A stretch of DNA of 29,106 bases, from positions 258,366-287,471 of the forward strand of contig NW_003123906.1 of assembly GCF_000003605.2 (NCBI RefSeq), in the 5' to 3' direction. The notes beneath the pieces were generated by a model, which searched no databases, had not been told where the DNA came from, and saw only the letters and a program-made list of their open reading frames with translations. Shown piece by piece: positions 2,045 to 27,867 of the stretch (positions are counted from its first letter, which is position 1; the number at the start of each line of letters is the position of its first letter). The position numbers and the translations under genes were made by a program. This stretch comes from Saccoglossus kowalevskii (taxonomy: Eukaryota > Hemichordata > Enteropneusta > Harrimaniidae).

Positions 2045-2820
2045 GATGTAATGAATTAATTTCAATATTGTATTTCAATTTCGAAACTAGATGTGATTCA
2101 CTGGCTGGAAAATGGTATATCGCAGAAATTGAGCTGCGACTAGACTGCAAGCCTGATGGGTACAATTAATAAGTGCTGCCCTATATGTTTTGAGGTGAGT
2201 GAACTATATATCTTTATGGAATATCACAGAATTTGAGCTGCGTCTAGATGGCAAGCCACCATGGGTATAAGTTATAAGTCCTGCCCCAATATGTTTTGAG
2301 GTGAGTGAACTATATATCTTTATTAATCTGAGGCATCGCTTGATGTTCAGTGCTCGTAATATTTATGAATTAATTTTAATAATCTATTTTGATTTCAATA
2401 CTAGATATGATCCCCCGGCTGAGAAATGGTATGTCACAGAATTTGAACTGCGACTCGAATGCACCCCCATGGGTACGAATTATAAGTCCTGCCCAATATG
2501 TTTTGAGGTGAGTGAACTATATATCTTTATTAATCTGAGGCATCACTTGGTGTTCACTGATTGTAATATTTATGAATTATTTCAAATATTTTATTTTGAT
2601 TTCAACACTAGATGTGATTCACTGGCTGGAAAATGGTATATTGCAAGAAATTGAACTGCGACTCGAATGCATTCCCTCATGGGTACAAGTTATAAGCCCT
2701 GCCCAATATTTTTTAAGGTGAGTAAACTAAATATGTTAATTAATCTGAGGTATCGCTTGATGTTCACTGCTTGTAATAAATTGTAATGAATTATTTTCAT
2801 TATTTTAATTTGATTTTAAT
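2045..2820 (+). repeat. Tandem array of exon-like units, about 207 bp period
   Basis: Four related copies follow each other. Full units begin with an acceptor-like CTAG at 2087, 2401 and 2608; a truncated unit begins near 2215, directly after the donor region of the first. Each unit has about 105 bp ending in a TTTTGAG|GTGAGT-type donor (GGTGAGTA in the last), then an AT-rich intron-like part. The unit at 2401-2508 keeps an open frame containing EKWYVTEFELRLEC and YKSCPICFE. The 207-bp spacing is a multiple of three, so one frame runs across two units. The other units have indels or stops. The cysteine spacing resembles no family I can name. It may be a decaying array of duplicated exons or a tandem repeat that merely includes splice-like sites. 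Confidence 0.7.
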
Positions 2821-3030
2821 TCTACAAAACCGACCACATTTAATATCTTACACCAAAATTATATCACCGAGCTGTAACCATATTCCACAACAACTTCATT
2901 ATTGCATGTTTTTCTATCTACAGGTGATGGATAACGGATGATACATCATGTGACTACAATCAGAAATATTTATATTCAGGTAAAATATATTTGGAATTAT
3001 ATTCAACGTTGTATCTGACTTACTTTTCCT
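2819..3030 (+). pseudogene. C-type lectin domain pseudogene fragment (paralogue of CTLD1 second exon)
   Basis: This segment aligns with 22962-23161, the second exon of CTLD1 in the intact gene plus both flanking introns. Matching stretches include TCTACAAAACCG before the exon and TTCAACGTTGTATCTGACTT after it. The pseudo-exon lies at 2924-2979 between a CTACAG acceptor and a GTAAAATAT donor. It is 56 nt against 68 nt, an in-frame loss of four codons. A TGA stands at the place of the tyrosine codon before the conserved Trp, and the last lectin cysteine (TGT) has become TAT. The residues DD.SC and YL are still readable. Weaker similarity continues to about 3310, matching about 23225-23275. The fragment cannot encode a working domain and no protease exons are seen nearby. 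Confidence 0.82.
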
Positions 3031-9935: not shown

Positions 9936-11782
9936 ATAGTTTTCATATACATTATTTCTGTTTTGCTTTATTTATAAACTTTGCTAGGGTATAAAACATG
10001 TCAGTATCGTAATGACATTTTGTTATTTATTTTATTTTTTAATTCCAGTTTCTTGCAACAGCTTTCATCTTTCTTTGTCGAAAATTCACAGTCGGGGATA
10101 AAATGTTGGGATATTTTATTTTTTTGCATTTCGTGTCATTTTCTCTAGGTTTTGCAGTGCGGGCTACATCTGTATACGATATCGGCAGCCAACCCCCCCC
10201 CACCCAAAAAAACACACAGCCACACACATATTTGTTCTCACTCAGCATACTGTAACGTAACCTTTTTCATTTTTTCTATCGGTTAACCACATTCAGTAAC
10301 ATATCCAGGTACAAGCAGAACAAATAATATTATACAGCTGTCAAAACTAATAATTGAGAATAGTATAATTTCATGGATGCTTTTAAACAAATTACACACG
10401 TTTTCAAACGGGGGAATAACATTTCGTGACAAATTACTCTATTTGCTAAGTTAATTTTCAGATCTTTTTTAAAGGTAATCTAGAATACTGGTTGAGGATT
10501 AAAAAAATCTAATTTGTTTAGCTTCCAACGAACATATCCCATTTAAAGTGTATTAAAAAAACAATCTTCTTCATGTGTACTAAACATCTGTATGCATGGC
10601 TAAATGCTAGCAGTGGTCTGGTGGCCATGGACCAGATAAACTAGATGTTCGGCTCGCAAAATTTTCAGAACGGTAAAATGTGGTGCCCTCATCGGACAAA
10701 AAATATGTTACTGTCTCTTATAAAAAAAATCCGAAAATTATTGTATAAATACAGGGCAAGGCCTATTGCAATCTGTACATAGACAAGCTATTTTATATGC
10801 TTTTCAAGATATTGTTGGCCTATTGTAAACTGAATGTTCATTGTTTTTTATTTTACATAAAACTCAATACAATGTACTGCTAATTCAGAATATCAAGCAA
10901 TATTGCAAAACTCTTCAGCGGCATTCTATGATCAGTACGCCCACTTTCTAATTGTCGAGTGTCGAGGATCCAAATGTGCCTGCATTAGAAATGAGGAAAA
11001 TACTTTCATTAGAAATGTATCTTTATGAACTATCCTATCACAAGTTTATATTGCACATTTGTTAATTATGGAAATCATATAGTCTACACAATACCCCAAA
11101 CTGAAGTAATCTCTTACCCACTATGCAGTCCCTGTAACAGTATTGAACTGCCTTGTAGTTCATGAATATTTATAATTATTTGCCACGAATGCATTGCTTT
11201 TCAAAATTAGGTTTTCAAAGATTCACAATTATTGGCCTAATGGTTATGACATTGCTGCTGATGTGCTAGCAACAAAATTTAAAATATGATTAATTTCACT
11301 TCAGCTAGCTATGGCTAAACATGTATGACCATTAACTTAGTCTATGTATGTAGCCATGTCCATGCATGGCAAATACGGCTGTTCTATTTTGATTGCTCAT
11401 TTTTTTTAAATCAAGTAAGCACTATTCAGCTCATAATATTCGTTCAAATTGAGCCTAGCATAATGAATACATTTACACAGTTCAAATACATCTAATAACA
11501 CCCATTTATTCTTTGGAATTCATCAAAATAAAAAAAACTTTTAAGTTTTAGAAAGCACATACACCTCCGTACCTTGTAAAGTAACAAAGACTAAATATTT
11601 TTCATTTCTGTTCATGAATCTTGATATTATTAAACCATGTCTTTGACGTTCCCAATCACAACACTAAACAGCAATTCACAGCAACGAATATCATACATAA
11701 GACTGAACAGTAACTTAGCATACCTCGCAAAGCTTTGAAGATGAAATTGGCTTCCATCCCACACGGCTGATTTTCTTCACCA
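9936..11782. repeat. Module A1: first copy of a large direct repeat of about 1.8 kb
   Basis: Collinear with A2 (14534-16280), from TAGTTTTCATATACAT at the left to GCAAAGCTTTGAAGATGAA and CATCCCACAC at the right. By eye about nine in ten bases match, with indels. Segment 11585-11715 is absent from A2, while A2 has about 70 bp near 16085-16155 that A1 lacks. Stops break the frames in both copies (an 80-codon frame in A2 at 15206 is interrupted in A1), so it is not obviously protein coding. Confidence 0.9.
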
Positions 11783-12111: not shown

Positions 12112-13573
12112 TTGTTTACCAAAAGATTTTACCAACTTTATTGCAAGATTCTATCCGCTGTAATCTGATTGTCATCTTTGCCATCCAACCGTATTATTGT
12201 TGAATTTGTATCTGGTAAGATTTGATTCTTTTGTATATTAAGTTTATTTGCCATTTTGTTAGTGTTTTTGAAGATGTTTTAACTTTTGTATACATTTTTG
12301 TATTTCGTGTATTGAGCAGACGACTGTATTTATGATCACAAATTTCTTTGTTCGGTATTTTGTGCGTTACTGCTTACAAAAAATTGAGTCGATTGCTCAT
12401 GAAGTGACACCCTGTCATAGTGATTCTGTGTGTGATATTTTCGTGACATTTTGCAAATTGTAAAAGAGGTATTTCTATTCATTTAATTCTATGCACTGTT
12501 TATCTGTAAAAGTCATACTTATCTGCACTTAAGTTTGCAATTCACTAGGAATATTACACTACTCCTTTATTACTAAACAGGTGTTAAGATCTGATATGTT
12601 CTGATATTTTGAAGCTAGAAATTGTGAATTGAGGACAGAAATTGTCTTTTTGCGTCCTGTCGGGGTGAGTGATATACATTTATAGTACATGAGCCTGTAA
12701 AATAGTGTTTAAATTGCCTGATTTATTATATAATACAACAAATCTTTGCAAATGTTTCTTCATACTGTAGTGTATATAAACACCTTGTTTATGCATTATT
12801 TCAGTATTTTATCTCTCTGATATGACATTGTATTGATTTTGTATATTTTGACAATAATAATGTGCAGTTTGGGTTGCTTCAGTTATTAATAGAAATGTAT
12901 TTTGTATCCCACGCATGATGTCATCATTTTAGGGCCAACTGATATTATTTATTTTTAACAGTGTTTTCTATACTTCTGTATGCAGGTTTCTGTAGTATAT
13001 CTTTGTTATATACACACAGAATTAGGAAATAAAAAGAACCGGATATGTGATTGGACTCNNNNNNNNNNNNNNNNNNNNNNNNNNNNNNNNNNNNNNNNNN
13101 NNNNNNNNNNNNNNNNNNNNNNNNNNNNNNNNNNNNNNNNNNNNNNNNNNNNNNNNNNNNNNNNNNNNNNNNNNNNNNNNNNNNNNNNNNNNNNNNNNNN
13201 NNNNNNNNNNNNNNNNNNNNNNNNNNNNNNNNNNNNNNNNNNNNNNNNNNNNNNNNNNNNNNNNNNNNNNNNNNNNNNNNNNNNNNNNNNNNNNNNNNNN
13301 NNNNNNNNNNNNNNNNNNNNNNTATATGTTGTCTATATGTCTTATATCCCAGCGTTACATAGTTATTAGAGTAGTGGAGTTTTACCGCGTTATTGTACTT
13401 GATGTTTGCAGAGTATAATAATACCAGTACCAGTTGAAACCTCATCTGTTGGCTCCGTGTTCGTTTGTTATCATCGCCGCCATGGAAGTCTTTCTGTTAC
13501 TGTTGCCATTTTGGTATTTGAATCATCACATCTGTACTATACCAATTACAGTAATATTACGTTGCGTGTGACA
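12112..13573. other. Insert sequence between A1 and B1, no gene seen
   Basis: This is most of a stretch of about 1.78 kb that separates A1 from B1 but is absent between A2 and B2. It is AT-rich and contains donor-like sites (12215 and about 12665) but no coding exon I can support. The assembly gap removes 264 bases of it, so a coding part could be hidden. Confidence 0.5.
13059..13322. other. Assembly gap (264 N)
   Basis: A run of N. Any reading frame crossing it is an artefact. Confidence 0.99.
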
Positions 13574-14220
13574 TGGAGTCTAAAGGAAATCTACACATTG
13601 AGAAACCCGTGTGGTGTATATTAGTGCACAACAACCCGGAATTTTTCGTGAACAAACTCAAAACTTTTCGTGGTAGACTTGAATTGCACAAATACGCGAG
13701 CACGCAGACTGAATAAACCGAATTTGGTCACAAAATGGCTGCGCGGGTCACGTGAACATATTTTTCCGCGTCGTCATCCGCCTACTCTCTATTCTGTATA
13801 AGGGGAATCTATTCGATATTTCTCTAAATATTATCAACATTATCAGAGACTGAAAAATGCTTAAGGATGTGCTACTTTTCCTCAGATATCGTATTGGCAA
13901 GGTCAATGTAACTATAAAATCATGAGTGACTGCATGGAAAAGATAACATTATGTTTGAATTATGTATAATATTTTTAGCTTGATTAGAAACTCTAGTGCT
14001 TTGAGTATATTCATGGCTGTTGGAGCACCTGGACAAATAGATTCTGTGTTTATGCATTTGTACATATTTTGAGCATCTAATGTATGTATCTAATTAGCTT
14101 TTCCATATTAATTAGACTTCTAATTACGCCAAATTACAATATTACCAGAGATCCAAGGGCGAGAGCCCCTTACCTATATATCCAAACCCGACTGCATGGG
14201 GCGTTCTGGTCCCATCGATA
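13574..14220. repeat. Module B1: copy of the B repeat
   Basis: Collinear with B2 from TGGAGTCTAAAGGAAATCT onward, including CACGCAGACTG, GGTCACGTGAACAT and CCGCCTACTCTCTATTCTGT, to ATCCAAACCCGACT and GGCGTTC at the right. It contains a CACGTG E-box near 13748. After 14220 about 310 bp, present neither in B0-A1 nor in the B2 tail, leads into A2. Confidence 0.88.
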
Positions 14221-14533: not shown

Positions 14534-16280
14534 ATAGTTTTCATATACATGATTTCTGTTTTGCTTTATTTATTTATAAACTTTGCTAGGGGTATAAAGC
14601 ATGTCAGTATTGTAATGAAATTGTTTTATTTAGTTTATTTTTTATTTCCAGTTTCTTGTAACAGCTTTCATCTTTCTTTGTCGAAAATTCACAGTCGAAG
14701 ATAAAATGTTGGGTTTATTTTTTTCAAACACTATTTTAATTTTTTTTTTTTTTTGCATTTCATGTCATTTTCTCTAAGTTTCGCAGTGCGGGCTACACCT
14801 CTATACCATATCGACAGCCAATAACCCCCCTCAAAAAACATGCAGTCATGGACCCACACACATATTTGTTCTCACTCATTCCAGCATACTGTAACGTAAA
14901 CTTTTTCATTTTTTTCTATCGGTTAACCACATTTAGCAACATATCCAGGTACAAACAGATCAAATGATACTATACAGCTATCAAAATTAATAATTGAGAA
15001 TACAACATTTTCATTGATGCTAAACAAATTACACAAGTTTTCAAACGGGAGTATACAATTTCGTGATAAATTACTCTATTTGCTCAGTTCATTTTCAGAC
15101 CCTTTTTAAAATTAATCTGGAGTACTGGTTGAGGATTAAAATCTAAATTGTTTAGCTTCCAACGAACATATCACATTTAAAGTGTATTAAAAAACAATTT
15201 TCTTCATGTGTACTAAACATCTGTATGCATGGCTAAATGCTAGCAGTGGTCTGGTGGCCATGGGCCAGTTAAATTTGATGTCAGTCTCGCAACATTTCCA
15301 GAACGGTGAAATTTGGTGCCCCCATCGGACAAAAAAAATTTCACTGTCACTTATAAAAATTACTGCAAATTATTGTATAAATACAGGGCAAGTCCTATTG
15401 CAACATGTACATAGTCAAGCTATTCAAGATATTGTTGACCTATTGTAAACTGAATGTTCAATACAATGTACTGCTATTCAATATTTCAGAATTCTTCAGC
15501 TGCATTTTATGATCAGTACGCCCACTTTCTAACTGTCGAGGACGCAAATGTGCAAATGAGTTTAATACTTTCATTAAAAACATATCTTTATGAAATATCC
15601 TATTACAAGTTAACATTGCACATTTGTTAATTATGAAAATCATATAGTCTACACAATACCCCAAACTGAAGTAATCTCTTACCCACTATGCAATCCCTGT
15701 AACAGTATTGAACTTCCTTGTATTTCATGAATATTTATAATTATTTGCCACGAATGCATTGCTTTTCAAAATTAGGTTTTAAAGATTCACAATTTGACCT
15801 AATGGTAATGACATTGCTGCAGATGTGCTAGCAACAAGAAAATTTAAAAATATGGCTAAACATGTATGACCATTAGCTTAGTCCATGTATGTAGCCATGT
15901 CCATGCTTGGCAAATACGGCTGGTCTATTTTGGTTGCTCATTGTTTAATTTTTGTTTAAATCAAGTAAGCACTCGTCAGATCAAAATATTCGTTCAAATT
16001 GAACCTAGCATGATGAATACATTTACACAGTTCAAATACATATAATAACACCCATTTATTCTTTGGAATTAATCAAAATAAAAATTTGCCAAGATATTGC
16101 ACTTTCTTAGTCTTTACATGTCAAATCAAAAATTTCACAAATGACAACTGTTTCACTTTTAAGTTTTAGGAAGCATATACACCTCCGTACCTTGTAAATT
16201 CGCATTTTTTTCGTAAGTACGTCGCAAAGCTTTGAAGATGAAGTTGGCTACCATCCCACACAGCTGGTTTTTTTTCACCC
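14534..16280. repeat. Module A2: second copy of the large direct repeat
   Basis: Partner of A1 (9936-11782). Two blocks are much better conserved than the rest: 15201-15263 is identical to 10568-10630, and 15614-15780 differs from 11050-11216 at only about four sites. No RNA gene or protein family was recognised in either block. Confidence 0.9.
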
Positions 16281-16295
16281 AGATTTTACTTCAGT

Positions 16296-17243
16296 TGGAG
16301 TCTAAAGGAAATCTGCACATCTAGAAACCCGTGTGGTGTATATTAGTGTACCGGAATTTTTAGTGAACAAATTCAAACATTTTCGTGGTAGACTTGAACT
16401 GAACAAATACGTGAGCACGCAGACTGGCTAAACCGAATTTGGCCACAAAATGGCCGCGCGGGTCACGTGAACATTTTTTCGCGTCGTCGTCCGCCTACTC
16501 TCTATTCTGTATAAAGGGAATCTATTCGATATTTCTCTAAATATTATCAACATTATCAGAGACTGAAAAATGGTTGAGGATGTGCTTTTCCACTGAGATC
16601 ACGTTGACAAGGTCAACATGACTATAAAATCATGCTGTCCACTGTGTGTGACTGCATGGCAAGGATAACATTATGTTTATATTGTGTATGATATTTCTAG
16701 ATTGATTAGAAACCCTAGTGCTTTGAGTACATTCATGGGTATTTCGTCCCCTGGACAAAAAGATTCTGTCCGTATATTTTTTTACTTATTTTGAACTGAT
16801 AATTGATGTAACTAATTAGCTATGTCCTGATATTTAGAATTGTAATTGCACTGATTAAAATATTTTCATGTAAAAAAAAAAATTAAAAAAAAATTCTTTT
16901 TGAGCGATTTCACTGTACTGCGTTTCCTTGGTGACAATCGGTAACGCTCCAACGCATGTATATTTTTGATATGTATTGGATATGCAGGACGATAAACAAC
17001 TGAATAGGGTAAAGTAATACCTGCACAAATATAAACAGTTAAAAAAATAATATCGAACGATTCCATTTACGGGAAATGGAAATACGATGATGGTCGAAAT
17101 GATGTTTTCGTTGACTTAAGAAGGCAGAGGACTGTCGTATAATCAATTTGGGAATTGCTATCAGGCCACAAAAAAATACCAGAGAGCTCCTTACTCACAT
17201 ATCCAAACCCGACTTATTGAGGGCGTTCGGGTCTCATGGATAA
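16296..17243. repeat. Module B2: copy of the B repeat
   Basis: Follows A2 after only about 15 bp (against about 1.79 kb between A1 and B1). It matches B1 at 16296-16860 and 17170-17243, and B0 at 16905-17035. It therefore carries parts that each of the other two copies lacks. Confidence 0.85.
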
Positions 17244-19410
17244 TTCCCCCAATCATTGAAAATGAAACGGGTATCAATGCTATATATATTTGGAAGTTCT
17301 GCCACAATTTTACTCATTTTCACTTTCTTTTTATTATTATTTAACATAATGGGGGACATTTCGACGTTAAGTTGCGCATTCACAAGATACAATTGTGTGC
17401 ATGAGTTGGCTATAAATGGAAACTGTTGTATGTGCTGGCAATCGTGATATACATATTATATTATATTATATTATGCTAAATATAGTATATTTATTCATTT
17501 ATAAATGTTCGATAATAATGTTTTTTATTATTTACTTTAACGCTTGTTTACGAGCAAATTGTTTGCATATTTTCAAAACAAACATATCCATAAATTATTA
17601 CTAGTAATTTTGTTTTACCTGATAAGATAAGCATTTAATATTTTTTTTTAATTTTTCTGATTGCGGATTATTCGTCTCGGCCAATCACATAACACGTTAC
17701 ATACAAGAGCTTACCAACGCGCACAATTTTATTCTATACTAGTAAAATAAAACGTTAGCATATAATGTAAACAGAGACAATTTCTGTTGCAAACATCAAA
17801 TATAAAATAACGCAATATACTTAGATACAATTAACTAATAGTTATTGTTTTTAAATTAGTAATTAGAATGGATGTACACTGCCTTAGTAAACCATTCGTA
17901 GCTAATGAGTTGATAGAAATGTATTTTGATTCAAAATGGCGAATATGATTTTTGCCTTGAAATATATTTACAGACAAAGAAACGTCCATAAACACTTTAC
18001 ATTCGTTTTAAAATCGCAACCATGACACATTTTTCCAAATGCGATCACATTTTACTTTGTATTGAATAGGACATTATCAGATTTCGATTTTGAGAAGCTG
18101 ATTTTTGCGTCTTTTGCAGATCGTTGATTAGCAGTGGACGATGATTGCTGTGTATTTTGATAAATTACATACTTTCCCTACGTCTATGAGGTATAATAAT
18201 AAAAAATGTTAAACAAATAAATGCACTAGCGTAAAGCTCCTGGATGAAACCGCTAAACATATGTCATTGTCACACAGAGTATGGACAAATAAACGTAATG
18301 TGAATAGTCAGCAAAGAGACATGAAGCAATGATTGTTTGCATTAAATTTTGTTTGGAATTGTATCCCCATGTTTTGCTTTGGAATGCTTTATTATCACAT
18401 TACGTGGGTGAGATATAGAGGATTTTTTACGTCAGAAATATGTAAATCATTTCAAACACCCCCGCAACGAAAACTGAGCAAATATTATTATAAATGCAGC
18501 AGTGTGCCTACAGTTTTAATTCATTCGCCTGACATCTACTCCTCTACGAATGTGGACAGATTCATGTGAGTATGGTATATTTTGTTGCATGCATGTGGCT
18601 ACGATATACATGATCTCAAATACAGGAAATCTGTTTTTTGGTGTGTGTGTGTTTTTTTACATTTACTATTTGTTCTAATCTTACCTGTTTATGAGCAATA
18701 CGACCATATTGATCCACTGTCGAGCGAGCAGAATTCTCAACTGAAATCGCGAGCGAGATTTATTTTCGAATAGTTTTGTTTGAAAAAGTCATCTCAAAAT
18801 AAAAATATTATCTCGATATTGTTCTAATGCATTATGAATTTAAATGCATTCATTTCGTGATTTTAATTTCATATTTGTAACGAATGCGTACGTAATCTTT
18901 CGTTACATTGATATGTTAACTATTTTTGACGCTACTACTCAGATTGATTTGATATGTGATTTGTACCTTACTCATTCCGTAATATAATATATGAGGTTTT
19001 CTATTTTTTGATATCGTTTTTGTCATAAACGCGATTGAAAACTGCTACGTAAATAATATCCATACTTCCGAGTAACCGGATTTCCTAGTGTGGCACATTT
19101 TGTGAGATATGTTGTATTTAACTCGAGTTCAGTTTACTCCACGTTCTTGATGATACCATACCCTTCGTATATGCTGGCTATCAAGTGTGCTGTACATATG
19201 TGAGTGAGCATGTTAAGTGAATTATTAATTAAAGGGTTTACGCTGTACCATATTGATATGTTCAAAACCTCTAAAGAAGTATAATGCGCATGTCCCTTAA
19301 AATAAAAAAAAAATAATATATGAAGCAGAATGTTTGCCCGTTCCGTTCGTCCATCTTTGTCACATGAAATAGAAGCTTCCGTTCCTTGTTTCAACTAAAA
19401 TACTTTTTAA
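17243..19410. other. Gene-free stretch upstream of the protease gene
   Basis: No coding exon is recognised. An ATATT microsatellite lies near 17453-17475. An open frame of about 78 codons (18333-18569) ends just past a donor-like TTCAT|GTGAGT but has no family resemblance. The stretch may hold upstream regulatory DNA or an unseen 5' non-coding exon of the astacin gene. Confidence 0.45.
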
Positions 19411-19474: not shown

Positions 19475-19883
19475 ATGGCAAAGATTCAAGCAGTATCCGT
19501 ATTTTTTGTAATGCTAGCGACTTTTACGTTTGTCACATATACGGTAAGTAGTAGACGTTCTACAGTCGAACGTTTGCGTGTTAGCCCAATGAAACACCTT
19601 GAACATTCTTCCCATCGTTTGAAAATCAAAACTAAAAATCAGATAAAGTATATTATTATTTAAAAATCATTTTAAATTATTTATTAGACACAAAACGAAC
19701 CTCCTGAAGAGCAACCAAGTCCTGGCACCCTGGAATCCGATATGAAGTTAACAGATGAACAACTCGGGGCTATTGTAGCAATTGTAGAGGCGGAGGCAAA
19801 CGGAGTGGTTGATAGAAAGGCTAAAGCCGATCTTACTTATCGTTGGCCAAATGCCGAAGTGCCTTATGCAATATCGGATTCAA
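19475..19883 (+). other. Astacin exons 1-2: signal peptide, propeptide and start of catalytic domain
   Basis: Exon 1 encodes a Lys-containing N-terminus followed by a hydrophobic core (VSVFFVMLATFTFV), and ends exactly in phase 0 at GTAAGT. Exon 2 carries an acidic propeptide, the LESDMKLT segment (D41 is the likely zinc-blocking aspartate) and the first catalytic strand. Activation probably occurs near the basic DRKAK stretch (65-69), just before YRWPN. The start codon is the first ATG after the putative transcript start. Confidence 0.88.
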
Positions 19884-22800
19884 GTAAGGATGATGTTCAT
19901 TTTCCCTGTGCAGCTTTTGTCTGTGTCTTTTTGCATTGTGCTTGTGTTTCTCGCTATGTACTCTATATATTTGTATCATTATAGGTCGAAATGATGGTGG
20001 TATAATAAGAAAAGCGCTTGCATATTGGGAGAGCAACACTTGTATTAGATTCCCGCTATATAATTCGGTCAACGCAAACCAACACAGAATAGAATTTATA
20101 AAGGCAGACGGGTAAGGTGGCTAAAAAGATAACATATTTTTCACAATTTTGCAATATTTAGTGGCGTATTGCTGTCTTTTCTATTCTATTCAAATACTGT
20201 TACACTTTTATTTATGCTACTAATCATTGTGTCCTGGGGGTGAGGGCAGGTCCGTTAACATTATTTAGATTTTTGCAAATAGTAAGACGAATGAAACGTC
20301 AACGGTTTAATATATTAGATTTAATGTTGGTGAGATGCAGTTAAAGCGATTTAGTACTTTTGCGGTGTCTTTGAATCCGAGGAAATAGTTCTGTGGCAAG
20401 TTAATCGTGTTGTGCCAGGTCACAGAACAACACACTCGGGACCACTGTTGTCTCTCCAGACTGTTTTTGAATGCAAGTACAGAGTAGAATATTCACCAAT
20501 ATTCCGTCTCAAACAGAGATAGGCTTTGAACTCAATGCCGATCATCAGTCCGCTTCACTTTAATGTCGGAACACGCCCAACGAACATCTAGTAGTATTGT
20601 GCAAATTTAGGAATTTCTCTTTGATTAACACCACGAGCCATTCTCTTGTTAATTTTTCTTGTACGTTTTGATGAATTGTACTATTGTGGGAAAGTGTTAA
20701 TTTGGATGCATCCAAGATGCGAAGACAAAGCATATGTGCATTTAACATTTTACTTAAATGTTTCGTGATATTTATTATTTTTTAAAACTTGTTTATGGTC
20801 TTGGTACTCTTTTGTTTGTTTGTTTATTGTATGTGTTTCTTCAAGGTGTAAATAAACGGCATATATATTCTAAGTTGTTGTATTTGACTATAGGTCATCA
20901 GTGAAACTGTGGCACTTTAAACGCCCTTTTTGTCTCTTGGTTTAGAATCATCCTTAGCATAGGAACAAGCCTTAAGTAACAAATGAATATCATAGTATTT
21001 TGACAAGAATGTGGGCAGACAACTACGTTTATTAACATTACTGAATAACTCGGTGTGTATTAAAATCTAATATTCAAATTCAATACAAACCTCAAAATGT
21101 CTTGTACGATGTGACATTGGTATCAGATGATGTACAATTGTTATAGTAAAAAGCTTTGTAACTTTCAGATAACGCCTGAATCACCGATCAGTGTTGAACT
21201 CCTTATCTCGTGTTGCTATTTCAATTACTATATGGTTATTGATGCATTTGTGTTACCTTTGTAGGTGCTGGTCGTGGGTCGGCGATACCGGTAAACTCCC
21301 ACAAAACATTTCCATAGGGGCTGGATGTGAATGGGTGAGTTATATTTATGTTGTGTTTTTGAGATGATGAGTAATGTTGAACGTTTGCCCTGGACCAAAT
21401 AGGCGTAACGTTGTATACGCACTATGCGATACAGCGTGGGATGACACGATTAAATTGTTAATTGTGCAATATGATATACTAAAATATTGACGGAAAATAT
21501 ATGACTGTCAAAGGTGAAAGGTGTGTATCTTTTTTCAGATCGTGACTTATTGGATATTTTATTATTTTGCCCAATAGAGAGGAACTATCGCTCATGAAAT
21601 TGGCCATGCAATAGGATTTTGGCATGAACAAAGTCGTGACGACAGAGACAATTATGTTACAGTTCACTTGGGAAATGTTAAATCGGGTCAAGATCATAAC
21701 TTCAATAAATATACTGCAAACAATGTTAACTCATACAACGTGCCATACGACGTTGGGTCTCTAATGCATTATGGTCCCAAGGTAATAATACGTTTATCAT
21801 TTCTTATTTGAACTTGGACTTTGACAATCCATACCATGAGGTGATACTACACAGTTTAAATACAAACTAATCTAATGAGATTCACGCTTTTTTACAGTGA
21901 TAATCACAACGGGGATAAACTAAATCATCAATTCTACATATGCATCTGTCTATAACGATATTGTTTTTTTTTCTACATGTATTATTTCATAAACTAACTA
22001 ACTTAGCATATTGATACTTCAGTTATGAACTCACGTCAGCTTATAAGTGTTGTGCTATGTTAACATACCAATAAATGAATTCAGTATTTCAGCAAGAATG
22101 GTTTGGATACAATAACAGCAAATAATCCAGAAGACCAAGATAAAATGGGCCAGGATGAGCATCTCAGTACTGCTGATATTCTGCTAGCTAATATAATTTA
22201 CGATTGCCCAGGCAGGTATATTTCTGGTTATTTGTAGGACATAGCTGCTAAGAAAATGAAATCGATATTTCATGATCCATCATCAAATAATTGTGGGTAA
22301 TTACCAACTAATTATCTTGAAGTCAAGAAAACTCCCCTAGCCGTGCACTAGCACGGTTGGCCAGATGTTGATCAGTATGGTTTATTCGTTTGTTCATTAG
22401 AAAGACTCTCAGATATACAAATGTAGGCTCTTGCACATTTACTGAAATTAATAAAATCATTACAGAATCAGAAACTCAACTAAAATTTAAGTGTCTCACA
22501 TTTTATTTGTCAGAAAATATTTATAATTTTCAATAAATTTACCCTGTGTTTATTATTTGTTTTCATTGCGTTTGTGTTTCTCGCAATAAATTATACAGGT
22601 GGAGCTAAAATCAGCACGGAATCAAAGCGTTGGGAAAATAACCAGTGTGCATCGCCATACAAAGTGAATAGCCTTGCTACTATGAATTGGGCAGTCTCTG
22701 CGCTAATCGCGAATGGAGATACTTCAAATTTCTGGATTGATGGCAGTATTGACGGCTCTAGAATCACATTCAGTGATGGTTCAACAATGGCGGTTGACTC

Positions 22801-24048
22801 AAATCTATTTCACGATGATGAACCCAATGGAAGTGGTTCCTGTCTGCAGTTGTGGTAAGTTCAAAATAATGGCAATTGATGCCATCCTGTTATACTAAAA
22901 AATATGTGCATGGTGCGTGTTTATAACAAGGTATGCAGTTGTCGGTTTATTTTATCAACTCATTCTACAAAACCGGCTACATTTAATATCCTAAATCAAA
23001 ATTACATCACCACTTTGCCAGAACAACCTCATTATTGCATAATCTACAGGCATAATAATGGTTACTGGATGATGGATGATTCATCATGTCACTACGAGCT
23101 GAACTATTTATGTTCAGGTAAAATATAATTTAAATTATATTCAACGTTGTATCTGACTTACTTTGACTATTTGAATATAAGTGAAGGTCATATATATACT
23201 GTATATATTCAATTTGTACAAACATGACCGACTGGCAGTCATTTCAGTTAAATTCATGACCGTGCCAATTCCTCACTAATATATCACCGATTCAGTTGAA
23301 AGTACTATACTTGCAAGTAATACTCTAGGCTGATCTATGTTTTTATTATAAAATTACAGATGCATGTCATATTTTTGTCTAGACGCGAACACGGATTGCC
23401 CATCTGACGACCATTTGGTTTGTTATGATTTCCATGTTAGTTTTTTTGACTGCATGTGTGTATATAATCACTGTATTTTGCATTTTACTATATTGAAATT
23501 GACATACGCGTGTACTGTGTACTGTCAAGGCGTATTATTATTATTATGCTCATGTTACATATAGCATTGCCTGTGGTTAGTTCGGACACAGCGTATCTAG
23601 CGTCAACTCAATGTGCGTCTGGAGCTCTATACCAAGTTACTGACCAGGCCAGTTTGGAACGTGCTCAGGTTGTTATGGCAACAAATGGAGAGAATGTAAA
23701 TTACTGGGTTGATGGCAATATTTCAGGCAATACAATTACCTTCACTGGTGGTTCAAAAATCGCAGTTGATTCGACACTGTTTCACGCAAATGAACCCAAT
23801 GGTAGTGGTCCCTGCCTCTTTTTGGGGTGAGTGTGAATTTGTTGGTGATTGATGATGACATAATTATAATTATAATTATAAAGGTGACTGTCGAATTACA
23901 CCAACAAAACATTTCCCATAAACGTCTTTACAACATAGAATTGCAATATTATTATTTTTTTGCTCATATTTACAGGTGGAACAGCGGTGAATGGAAATTA
24001 GATGATAGCGCATGTGGTCATCAGCGAAGGTATTTATGTATTGGTTAA
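19475..24048 (+). CDS. Secreted astacin-family zinc metalloprotease with two C-terminal C-type lectin-like domains
   Basis: Exons: 19475-19543, 19688-19883, 19985-20111, 21265-21334, 21578-21781, 22085-22211, 22599-22854, 23050-23117, 23565-23826, 23976-24048; 1452 nt, 483 residues, in frame throughout. Residues 1-23 form a signal peptide. The propeptide (24 to about 67) contains LESD, in the place of the FxGD aspartate switch. The catalytic domain (about 68-263) starts near YRWPNAEVPYAI. Zinc ligands are H160, H164 and H170, with catalytic E161 and Met-turn SLMHY (M217, Y219). Cys 108/263 and 132/152 fit the two astacin disulfides. CTLD1 spans 265-372 and CTLD2 373-483, each with four cysteines, W(I/V)DG and EPN. 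Astacins cleave extracellular or secreted proteins; the lectin domains probably direct it to a glycan or protein surface. The intron after 22211 must use GC-AG. The catalytic part is certain; the fusion rests on frame and conserved phases. Confidence 0.92.
21265..22211 (+). other. Astacin exons 4-6: active site, Met-turn and C-terminal catalytic subdomain
   Basis: Exon 4 encodes the C132-C152 loop (DGCWSWVG to GAGCEW). Exon 5 encodes GTIAHEIGHAIGFWHEQSR with the three zinc histidines and the glutamate, and ends at SLMHYGPK. Exon 6 encodes YFSKNGLDTI and closes the domain with IIYDCP (C263). The acceptor at 22084 was preferred over the nearby AG at 22092 because only the first keeps the family sequence YFSKNG in frame. 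All key catalytic residues are intact, so an active enzyme is expected. Confidence 0.93.
22341..22356. repeat. Short perfect inverted repeat within the protease-lectin intron
   Basis: CCGTGC-ACTA-GCACGG lies inside intron 6. It is GC-rich compared with its surroundings. A role in splicing is possible but not shown. Confidence 0.6.
22599..23117 (+). other. C-type lectin-like domain 1 (exons 7-8)
   Basis: Exon 7 (phase 1 entry) encodes KISTESKRWENNQC, FWIDG and EPNGSGSC. Exon 8, joined in phase 2 inside a Trp codon, encodes GYWMMDDSSC and NYLC. Expected disulfides are C281-C371 and C346-C363. E339-P340-N341 is the motif that in classical lectins helps bind calcium and mannose-type sugars. The usual WND is replaced by MDD, with Asp kept at the position three before the Cys. 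The extra N-terminal cysteine pair of long-form CTLDs is absent. Confidence 0.85.
23383..23435 (+). other. Possible skipped or decayed linker exon between the two lectin domains
   Basis: After a TTTGTCTAG acceptor, the frame entering in phase 1 reads ANTDCPSDDHLVCYDF, close to the N-terminal strand of long-form CTLDs (CPxxx..xxCY). No strong donor follows. The only early phase-1 donor (GTTATG, intron from 23422) is weak, and GTTAGT at 23436 gives the wrong phase for exon 9. It may be an alternative exon or a remnant. Confidence 0.35.
23565..24048 (+). other. C-type lectin-like domain 2 (exons 9-10)
   Basis: Exon 9 enters in phase 1 at ATAG|CA. Its start aligns residue for residue with exon 7 (VSSDTAYLASTQC against ISTESKRWENNQC). 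It carries YWVDG and EPNGSGPC (449-451 EPN). Exon 10 enters in phase 2 and encodes GEWKLDDSAC and RRYLC, then Gly and TAA. Pairs C389-C481 and C456-C473 are expected. An upstream ATG at 23546 in the same frame would give a hydrophobic leader, so a stand-alone secreted lectin transcript is an alternative, but the shared boundary with CTLD1 favours splicing. Confidence 0.83.
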
Positions 24049-24740
24049 ATGGTAAGTCATCTAGTATTTTGCCTTGCAAACATGTCAACCTAAACAACAT
24101 TCTTAATGCGCATGTAATTCACAAAAAGTTAATTATTCTTGAACTCAACAATATTCTTCCCTTGTACATTTATCTACCGATTTGCACATAATTTTCTATT
24201 TCTAGGTTATATTCACTTAGTGCATATTTTGCATCCTGTGTAGTTTAAGCAATGGCACATTATTTATCCCCCTGCGTCTGTTCACTAATTTGACATTATT
24301 TCATTGTACAATATTCGTACATTATGTATCTGTTCACTAATTGCATATCATTCTCAGTTTTCTAAACATGTACATTATTTTCATGTTGTTAATTATTCGG
24401 TATGTAGTGTAGTATATTGCACTTCAATTCATTTATATATTTTTCAAATACAAATGTGAATATAGGAAATACAAAATTGTTTTGTTAATTTAAAATTATC
24501 TGTTAATCGTTTTATTTAATTTCAGAAAATGGTTCATTTACGACAGATTCCGAAAATAGTGCATAATGTAAATATAGTATATCGCATGGGTTAGTTCGAT
24601 TGCATGCCTGATGTAAAAATAATAATAAATCGTATGTATTGCAGAACATCCTGGAGTCATGGTCTTTTATATTTGGTATAGTTGTGGCACGAGATTATTA
24701 CAGCCTCTTCCAATAAACGACCAATTCAATCTAGTTGAAA
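24049..24740 (+). other. 3' UTR with an intron
   Basis: Three bases after the stop codon an ATG|GTAAGT donor opens an intron (24052 to about 24525) with an ATTTCAG acceptor. The terminal exon would run from 24526 to about 24740. The stop lies only 3 nt from the exon junction, too near to trigger decay by the usual 50-55 nt rule. Confidence 0.55.
24712..24717 (+). terminator. Polyadenylation signal AATAAA
   Basis: A canonical hexamer in a good position for cleavage near 24730-24740. An earlier AATAAA at 24624-24629 could give a shorter transcript. Confidence 0.55.
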
Positions 24741-26160: not shown

Positions 26161-27867
26161 ATACATATAGTGTAGCATCAGCAATTACTCAAAATACGCG
26201 ACATATAGTGTAGAATTGGTAGTGACACATATTACACTACATATAGAGTAGCATCAGTAACACATATATGCTACATATAGTGTAGCGTAAGCAATGACAC
26301 ATATTACACTGCGTAAAGAGTAGCATCAGTAATGACATATATGCTACATACAGTGTAGTATGAGCAATGGCATATATTACACTACATATAATGTAGCATC
26401 AGCAATTACACATATTACACTATATATAGTCTAGAATCGGCACTGACACTTATTATGCTACATATTGTGTAGAATTGGCAATGACACATATTACACTACA
26501 AGCAGTGTAGCATCAGAAATGACACATATTACACTACATATAGTGTAGCATTAGCAATTACACATATTACACTATATATAGTCTAGAATCGGCAACGACA
26601 CATATTATGCTACATATAATGTATTACACTGCGTAAAGAGTAGCATCAGTAATGACATATATGCTACATATAGTGTAGTATGAGCAATGGCATACATTAC
26701 ACTACATAAAATGTAGCATCAGCAATGACACATATTACACTATATATAGTCTAGAATCGACAATGACACTTATTATGCTACATATAGTGTAGAATTGGCA
26801 ATGACACATATTATACTACAAGCAGTGTAGCATCAGAAATGACACATATTACACTACATATAGTGTAGCATTAGCAATTACACATATTACACTATATATA
26901 GTCTAGAATCGGCAATGACACATATTATGCTACATATAATGTAGCATCAGCAAAGACACATCTTACACAGCATATAGTGTAGAATTGGGAATGACACATA
27001 TTACACTACATACAGTGTAGCATCAGCAATTACATATATTATGCTACATATATTGTAGCATCAACAATGACACTTATTACACTACATATAGTGTAGCACT
27101 AGCAATTACACATATTACGCTACATATAGTGTAGCATCAGCAATGACACATAATGCGCTACATACAGTGTAGCATCAGCAATTACATATATTATGCTACA
27201 TATATTGTAGCATCAACAATGACACTTATTACACTACATATAGTGTAGCACTAGCAATTACACATATTACGCTACATATAGTGTCGCATCAGCAATGACA
27301 CATATTACGCTACATATAGTGTAGCATCAGCAATTACACATATTACTCTACATATAGTGTAGCATCTAGAATGACACATATTACGCTACATATAGTGTAG
27401 CATCTAGAATGACACATATTACTCTACATATAGTGTAGCATCTAGAATGACACATATTACTCTACATATAGTGTAGCATCTAGACTGACACATATTACGC
27501 TACATATAGTGTAGCATTAGAAATTACACTTATTGCGCCACACATAGAGTAGCATCAGCAATGACACATAATACGCTACATACAGTGTGGCATCAACAAT
27601 GACACATATTACGCTACATATAGTGTAGCATCAGCAATTACACATATTACTCTACATATAGTGTAGCATCTAGAATGACACATATTACGCTACATATAGT
27701 GTAGCATCAGCAATGACACATATTACGCTACATATAGTGTAGCATCAGCAATTACACATATTACTTTACATATAGTGTAGCATCTAGAATGACACATATT
27801 ACGCTACATATAGTGTAGCATCAGCAATGACACATATTACGCTACATATAGTGTAGCATCAGCAATT
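26161..27867. repeat. 38-bp minisatellite, about 45 units, each with an inverted repeat
   Basis: The unit is GACACATATTAC.CTACATA followed by TAGTGTAGCATCAGCAAT. The 38-bp period is exact in the right half, for example GCATCTAGAATG at 27362 and 27400. Each unit has a small stem such as GCTACA-TATAG-TGTAGC or ACACTA-CATA-TAGTGT. The left half is older and more varied, with a 152-bp (four-unit) period and a duplicated block of about 320 bp. The right half is more uniform. There is no coding potential. Confidence 0.97.

Follow-up and report, generated by a model that had tools for sequence, protein, structure and literature searches.

The analysed window is a 29,106-nucleotide stretch of the Saccoglossus kowalevskii genome (assembly GCF_000003605.2, contig NW_003123906.1, positions 258,366 to 287,471 of the forward strand). 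It contains, at 19475–24048, what is very probably a single gene for an astacin-type metalloprotease followed by two C-type lectin-like domains (CTLDs). Ten exons splice into a stop-free reading frame of 483 amino acids (aa) that closes on a stop codon. Along the product lie a signal-like peptide, a propeptide, a whole astacin domain and the two CTLDs. The initial annotation had proposed these coordinates and the 483-residue model, and the ten-exon splice bears them out. It had further claimed a complete astacin active site followed in frame by two CTLDs with EPN motifs, which agrees with our Pfam and motif results and, for the fusion, with a paralogue (L026) and the intron phase. Eight of the nine introns are GT-AG introns, and intron 6 (22212–22598) is GC-AG in the ten-exon model, a point that the initial annotation had not raised.

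All exons lie on the plus strand. Exon 1 of the splice model (19475–19543) holds the start codon and a hydrophobic, signal-peptide-like stretch of 23 aa, and ends at a GTAAGT donor. Inspection by eye suggests that a possible TATA box (18489–18494) and a 5' untranslated exon (together 18489–18565) may precede it, with a GTGAGT donor at 18566 joined to 19444, before the ATG. Exon 2 (19688–19883) encodes the propeptide with the sequence LESDM and the beginning of the catalytic domain, exon 3 (19985–20111) the N-terminal part of the astacin domain, and exon 4 (21265–21334) the stretch CWSWVGDTGKLPQNISIGAGCEW. The zinc site HEIGHAIGFWHEQSRDDRD and the Met-turn SLMHYG are both located in exon 5 (21578–21781). 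Exon 6 (22085–22211) completes the catalytic domain and exits in phase 1, with alternative ends at 22215 (phase 2) and 22226 (phase 1). The lectin part is composed of two exon pairs. CTLD1 begins in exon 7 (22599–22854, with EPNGSGSC) and ends in exon 8 (23050–23117, WMMDDSSC...YLC), which exits in phase 1. CTLD2 begins in exon 9 (23565–23826, EPNGSGPC) and ends in exon 10 (23976–24048), which carries WKLDDSAC...YLC and the stop codon. In the window (24043–24055), the last CTLD copy ends in a stop codon that is directly followed by a donor-like TAAAYGGTRRGY, and the same is seen at L026 and at two further loci, L044 and L050. This suggests an intron in the 3' untranslated region or an additional, alternatively used exon.

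The Pfam Astacin profile (PF01400) matches residues 75–264 of the product over its full length (profile positions 1–189 of 189) with an E-value of 9.4e-64 and 215 bits. Both HEIGHAIGFWHE and SLMHYG are whole in the spliced product. The sequence HEIGHAIGFWHEQSRDDRD in exon 5 matches the HEXXHXXGXXH zinc site, the Glu after the third His and the XXRXDRD motif, as these are defined in section 5 of PMC9848320. The Met-turn reads SLMHY instead of SIMHY, a single conservative change. The FXGDI motif of the aspartate switch, defined in the same section, is not present literally; LESDM is found here and FEGDM in the paralogue L006, with the Asp aligned. The astacin assignment is far beyond chance. Among solved structures, meprin beta (4gwm), tolloid-like 1 (3edi) and BMP1 (6bsl) resemble the gene product in the catalytic domain (E 1.9e-41, 6.6e-39 and 4.4e-36), whereas their tails are of the MAM/TRAF/EGF or CUB/EGF kind (PMC9848320).

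The Pfam Lectin_C profile (PF00059) matches the whole protein in two stretches with an E-value of 8.4e-6 and 26.9 bits (cut-off 22.6). Canonical CTLDs have four cysteines, an EPN or QPD loop and an acidic pair before the third cysteine, and both window copies possess EPN, four cysteines and an Asp pair ahead of the third Cys. When a profile of four CTLD copies was compared with solved structures, the tunicate lectin TC14 (1byf) ranked at the top (E 9.9e-5) and Clec4d was matched with an E-value of 0.0015. In the TC14 alignment, the window CTLDs agree with TC14 in the EP residues and in the two Asp that precede the third Cys. Polyandrocarpa TC14 (1byf, 1tlg) therefore resembles them in the EP loop and in the LDD before the third Cys, but it is a stand-alone lectin of 125 aa and has EPS in the solved sequence, where the window copies have EPN. 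Taken as a whole, the CTLD assignment is well supported. EPN is the motif of the mannose type. TC14-3, in contrast, is described as galactose-binding in the available text of PMC3293724, and the sugar specificity of the window CTLDs would thus not be readable from their motif. A tunicate source of the DNA, which the TC14 match might suggest, was rejected. The genome's single COX1 match is on a 17-kb contig, and in the mitochondrial genes ND1, COX1 and COX2 (L029) ATA stands at Ile positions, AAA at Lys, TGA at Trp and one AGA at a Ser position, which probably reflects the hemichordate code.

At the border between protease and lectin part, splice sites were scored with a small home-made weight matrix, for which 12 donors and 12 acceptors were taken from the window gene and L026. 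Three frame-keeping joins in the window leave both domains whole. The GC donor joined from 22211 to 22599 ranks highest (5.2 + 7.2), and two GT-AG joins, from 22226 to 22599 (3.3 + 7.2) and from 22215 to 22615 (4.3 + 1.7), also keep the frame. The GC donor reads CAG/GCAGGT, the GT donor at 22215 lies 4 nucleotides (nt) downstream of it, and the second acceptor (22615) lies 16 nt downstream of the first. In L026, the identical GC donor joined to the first acceptor scores 5.2 + 2.9 and the corresponding second pair 3.9 + 1.9, so the GC/GT donor pair and the acceptor pair are common to both genes. Because alternative frame-keeping joins are available in the window as well as in L026, the fusion does not hang on a single unusual splice site. 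A strict dependence on the GC donor was considered and is ruled out by the two frame-keeping GT-AG joins.

The same border was scanned at 18 astacin loci other than the window. A GT[AG]AG donor is present in 11 of the 18, in phase 1 in every case (11/11), and is missing at the remaining seven, L026 included. A GT of phase 1, of whatever context, is found near the border at all 17 loci other than L026. GTs of every phase abound there (43 in phase 1, 28 in phase 2 and 22 in phase 0), and for this reason consensus donors rather than bare phase-1 GTs were taken as evidence. We infer that the GC donor is an older phase-1 donor in which one base changed before the window gene and L026 separated.

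L026, on contig C1343, is a duplicate with astacin, CTLD1 and CTLD2, and it has the order, the phases and the GC donor of the window gene. Synonymous divergence (dS) between the two is 0.45 over exons 5 and 6, compared with 1.19–1.51 for four of seven other paralogues (the other three gave no value). In a blastn comparison, exons 4–7, 9 and 10 match with short flanks, together with one 25-base stretch downstream. In a fixed register, 17 of 40 and 13 of 40 bases are identical in the two flanks of intron 6. A first tree of 112 catalytic columns, holding 22 of 27 rows (five were dropped for gaps), paired the window gene with L026 at 0.77. That result was discarded, as tblastn had partly misread the L026 row across an intron. 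In the tree with the corrected row, which also lacks L019, the pair falls apart (0.51 in FastTree; bootstrap 16). The kinship of the two genes therefore rests on dS, the common tail and the donor.

The lectin module can also be traced outside the astacin loci. The exon 7 peptide, used as a query, matched ten places. The window and contigs C1343, C207 and C350 have two each, C3803 has one, and the match on C2724 is weak (E 0.002). The module consists of two exons, and C207, C350 and C3803, where it is present, are outside the astacin list. A genome search with CTLD1 found no contig of the astacin list besides those of the window and L026. The modules of L044 and L050, joined by hand, pass the Lectin_C cut-off on their own (22.8 and 25.5 bits). 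Phases were checked in five copies, two of them at L044 and one each at L046, L049 and L050. Entry is in phase 1 in the two L044 copies and at L049 and is unreadable at L046 and L050, and the inner donor is in phase 2 in all four copies inspected (both of L044, L046 and L050). The acceptor of the second exon fits in four of five copies, the first L044 copy being listed with its start one base off. The exit is clearly in phase 1 at L049 only, and the first exon of the L049 copy is frame-broken. Near the modules lie a CUB domain at L046 (E 5.1e-6), a mucin WxxW domain at L050 (E 3.4e-21) and a Cys-rich exon at L045 that resembles the L039 repeats, proximity here not implying membership of the same gene. 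The recurrence of the two-exon lectin module outside the astacin list points to exon shuffling.

The window gene is one of a set of related proteases. A Pfam search of the organism's own genome (572 Mb, 4830 contigs) gave at least 51 astacin exon matches, which were grouped by hand into about 32 loci, the window included. At the 31 others, 2–10 kb at and downstream of the match were examined, with parts masked. Ten tail reading frames were compared with Pfam. Six exceed the curated cut-off (kringle, VWD, tectonin, TSP1, F5/8C type 2 and MAM), two lie below it (WSC, and Lectin_C in L019) and two have no match; further tails of kringle, VWD, TSP1, CUB and WSC types were named by eye only. The other astacins are thus alike in the catalytic core and in the phase 1 of their consensus end donors, where found, but differ in their tails. 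Within the sequence examined, the window-type tail is repeated only in L026. At L016 (G000:C2388), the astacin is followed by tectonin-like exons in two similar copies about 1.6 kb apart, the Pfam result referring to the first. At L019 (G000:C48), exons resembling TSP1, WSC and VWD were recognised by eye, and some 5 kb downstream there is a CTLD exon of canonical appearance, perhaps of a separate gene. A Cys-rich repeat, WRxDxxCG...CCS...CG...C.C..C.DY, is located behind the astacin at L039 (G000:C560) and before the CTLD module at L045 (G000:C207). Pfam gives a weak chitin-binding match for the L039 copy (E 0.016) and none for that of L045.

At 2819–3026 on the plus strand, roughly 20 kb before exon 8 of the gene, lies a degenerate duplicate of that exon together with adjoining intron sequence. 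It is 78% identical to 22962–23164, its last Cys is read as Tyr, and it adjoins a 207-bp tandem repeat (2216–2824). A 38-bp minisatellite of about 45 copies occupies 26162–27866, 2 kb downstream of the gene. Direct duplications of 82–83% identity pair 9936–11534 with 14534–16084 and 13574–14143 with 16296–16864, and a run of 264 Ns is found at 13059–13322. Rfam gave zero matches at the gathering threshold within the window.

We consider it highly probable that the locus is one gene, in which a secreted astacin (M12A) zymogen was joined by phase-1 exon shuffling to a two-exon CTLD module, doubled in tandem, and in which the tail would guide cleavage. The support consists of the open frame, the zinc and Met-turn sites, two CTLDs of the same exon-pair kind, a paralogue of the same plan, and module phases that match where readable. 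On this account, the catalytic domain would have been joined at a phase-1 intron to the lectin module, which would then have been doubled. The protein is predicted to be secreted, and removal of the propeptide would free the protease from a latency that is probably of the aspartate type, given the alignment of the LESDM Asp with FEGDM of L006. The pair of Ca2+-type lectin domains would hold the enzyme near a glycan-bearing surface and thereby raise cleavage there. Mucus, matrix, a microbe or the egg coat are candidate surfaces, among which the sequence does not decide. That the gene encodes a lectin-guided protease acting at a glycan surface may fairly be inferred.

Several observations weigh against this account. 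Scored singly, the CTLDs stay a little short of the 22.6 cut-off, with 20.7 and 21.9 bits, and their identity therefore rests also on the cysteines, EPN, the acidic pair and the TC14 match. The N-terminal part of a full-length CTLD is seemingly absent. The structure prediction of one incomplete CTLD is poor (pLDDT 63.7), and Foldseek with this single model gave no match below E 1 (best E 1.3), with CTLDs among the weak matches (CLEC9A at rank 5, LOX-1 at rank 8). The calcium ligands of TC14, given in the available text of PMC3293724 as Glu106, Asn109, Asp127 and Asp128, are aligned in three of four cases (Glu and both Asp), whereas Asn109 stands opposite Gly, with an Asn one place earlier. Both CTLD copies of L026 have EPD instead of EPN, and exon 8 of L026 measures 55 nt against 68 in the window, which breaks its frame. 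In a gapped global alignment of the two genes, identity over the aligned bases is 82% for intron 5 and 80% for intron 6, which is not below the 77% of exon 7. Their differences by codon position number 27, 18 and 30 over 110 protease codons (p 0.21) and 42, 43 and 49 over 191 lectin codons (p 0.42), and exon-wise ratios of nonsynonymous to synonymous divergence (dN/dS) are 0.36–0.71 (NG86). With differences nearly even over positions and ratios of this size, the pair offers no codon-level proof of constraint on the lectin tail. Moreover, the junction is ambiguous between the GC donor and weak GT alternatives, and the astacin-CTLD fusion is known here from genomic sequence alone.

In a rival account, the gene is fused but its CTLDs do not bind sugar; they would act in dimerisation, protein binding or folding, roles that many CTLDs have. 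The domains are compact with a short EPN-to-Cys loop, their Pfam scores are near the cut-off, one TC14 ligand is out of register and EPD replaces EPN in L026; in addition, TC14-3 dimerises via helix alpha2 according to the available text of PMC3293724. EPN and the Asp pair are nevertheless kept in both window copies, with the Glu and both Asp on calcium-site positions of TC14, and we regard this explanation as possible but doubtful. It is unlikely that the locus makes mainly a tail-less protease, with intron 6 often retained or 22215 joined to 22599, so that most product stops after the catalytic domain. Reading unspliced into intron 6 gives CPGRYISGYL-stop, the GT join from 22215 to 22599 stops at once (CPGRWS-stop, read by hand), and L026 behaves alike. 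The weak donor pair is common to both copies, and GC donors are enriched in alternatively spliced genes, as stated in the available text of PMC2490688. The open CTLD frames, the matching phases, at least two frame-keeping joins per copy and the tandem doubling argue, on the other hand, that at least part of the product carries the tail.

If the locus instead held two neighbouring genes, with the astacin closing after exon 6 and a separate lectin gene opening near exon 7, this would explain why no strong frame-keeping GT-AG join exists at the border and why the CTLD module occurs on non-astacin contigs. Yet the open frame leading into exon 7 (22484–22598) contains no ATG, weaker in-frame GT-AG joins are available and L026 repeats the order. 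The consensus border donors at other loci are, moreover, all in the phase of exon 7, and this arrangement is very improbable. A decaying pseudogene would account for the frameshifted exon 8 of L026, the exon-8 relic at 2819–3026 and the nearly even differences over codon positions. The window copy is intact, however, and its catalytic exons show dN/dS of 0.11–0.25 against older paralogues (four of seven comparisons; three without a value). With L013, L016 and L023 as outgroups, L026 has 16 changes of its own and the window gene 2, 3 and 5, whereas with the three VWD-tailed outgroups (three of six) the difference between the two copies is not significant. Decay of the window gene is accordingly judged extremely unlikely.

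The least expected feature of the single fused gene is that, in both copies, donors as well as acceptors come in pairs where the protease and lectin parts meet. These pairs, with donors 4 nt apart, could conceivably work as a splice switch, in which matched pairs would yield a lectin-anchored protease, and joining the GT donor to the first acceptor, or retaining the intron, would yield a freely diffusing one. Such a switch would be one element of a broader system, in which phase-1 exon shuffling has combined a single astacin core with many different glycan- or matrix-binding tails. We hold this scheme to be a long shot.

The initial annotation had taken a double CTLD tail to be outside the standard astacin arrangements, which stands only in part. 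CLEC (C-type lectin, PS50041) already appears as an accessory domain of astacins in the Figure 1 legend of a 2023 review (PMC9848320), and the review also names KRING, FA58C, VWF, SMB, TSP and more. As far as that legend allows a comparison, the CLEC astacins are like the window gene in signal peptide, propeptide, M12A domain and C-type lectin accessory domain, and two compact TC14-like CTLDs set the window gene apart. A search of the open-licence PMC literature found neither a double-CTLD astacin nor the splice-site pairs. The combination of astacin and C-type lectin is thus on record, and the double compact CTLD tail and the splice-site pairs of this member appear to be unpublished within the open-licence PMC searched.

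With about 32 astacin loci of differing tails in the same genome, the window gene is an ordinary member of its family and, taken alone, one more modular astacin. Together with its paralogues, it provides a compact and still readable case of exon shuffling, with a shared phase-1 exit, varied tails and a lectin module that can be traced elsewhere in the genome. If the tail indeed aims the enzyme, the astacin set of S. kowalevskii would form a natural series on how accessory domains choose substrates.

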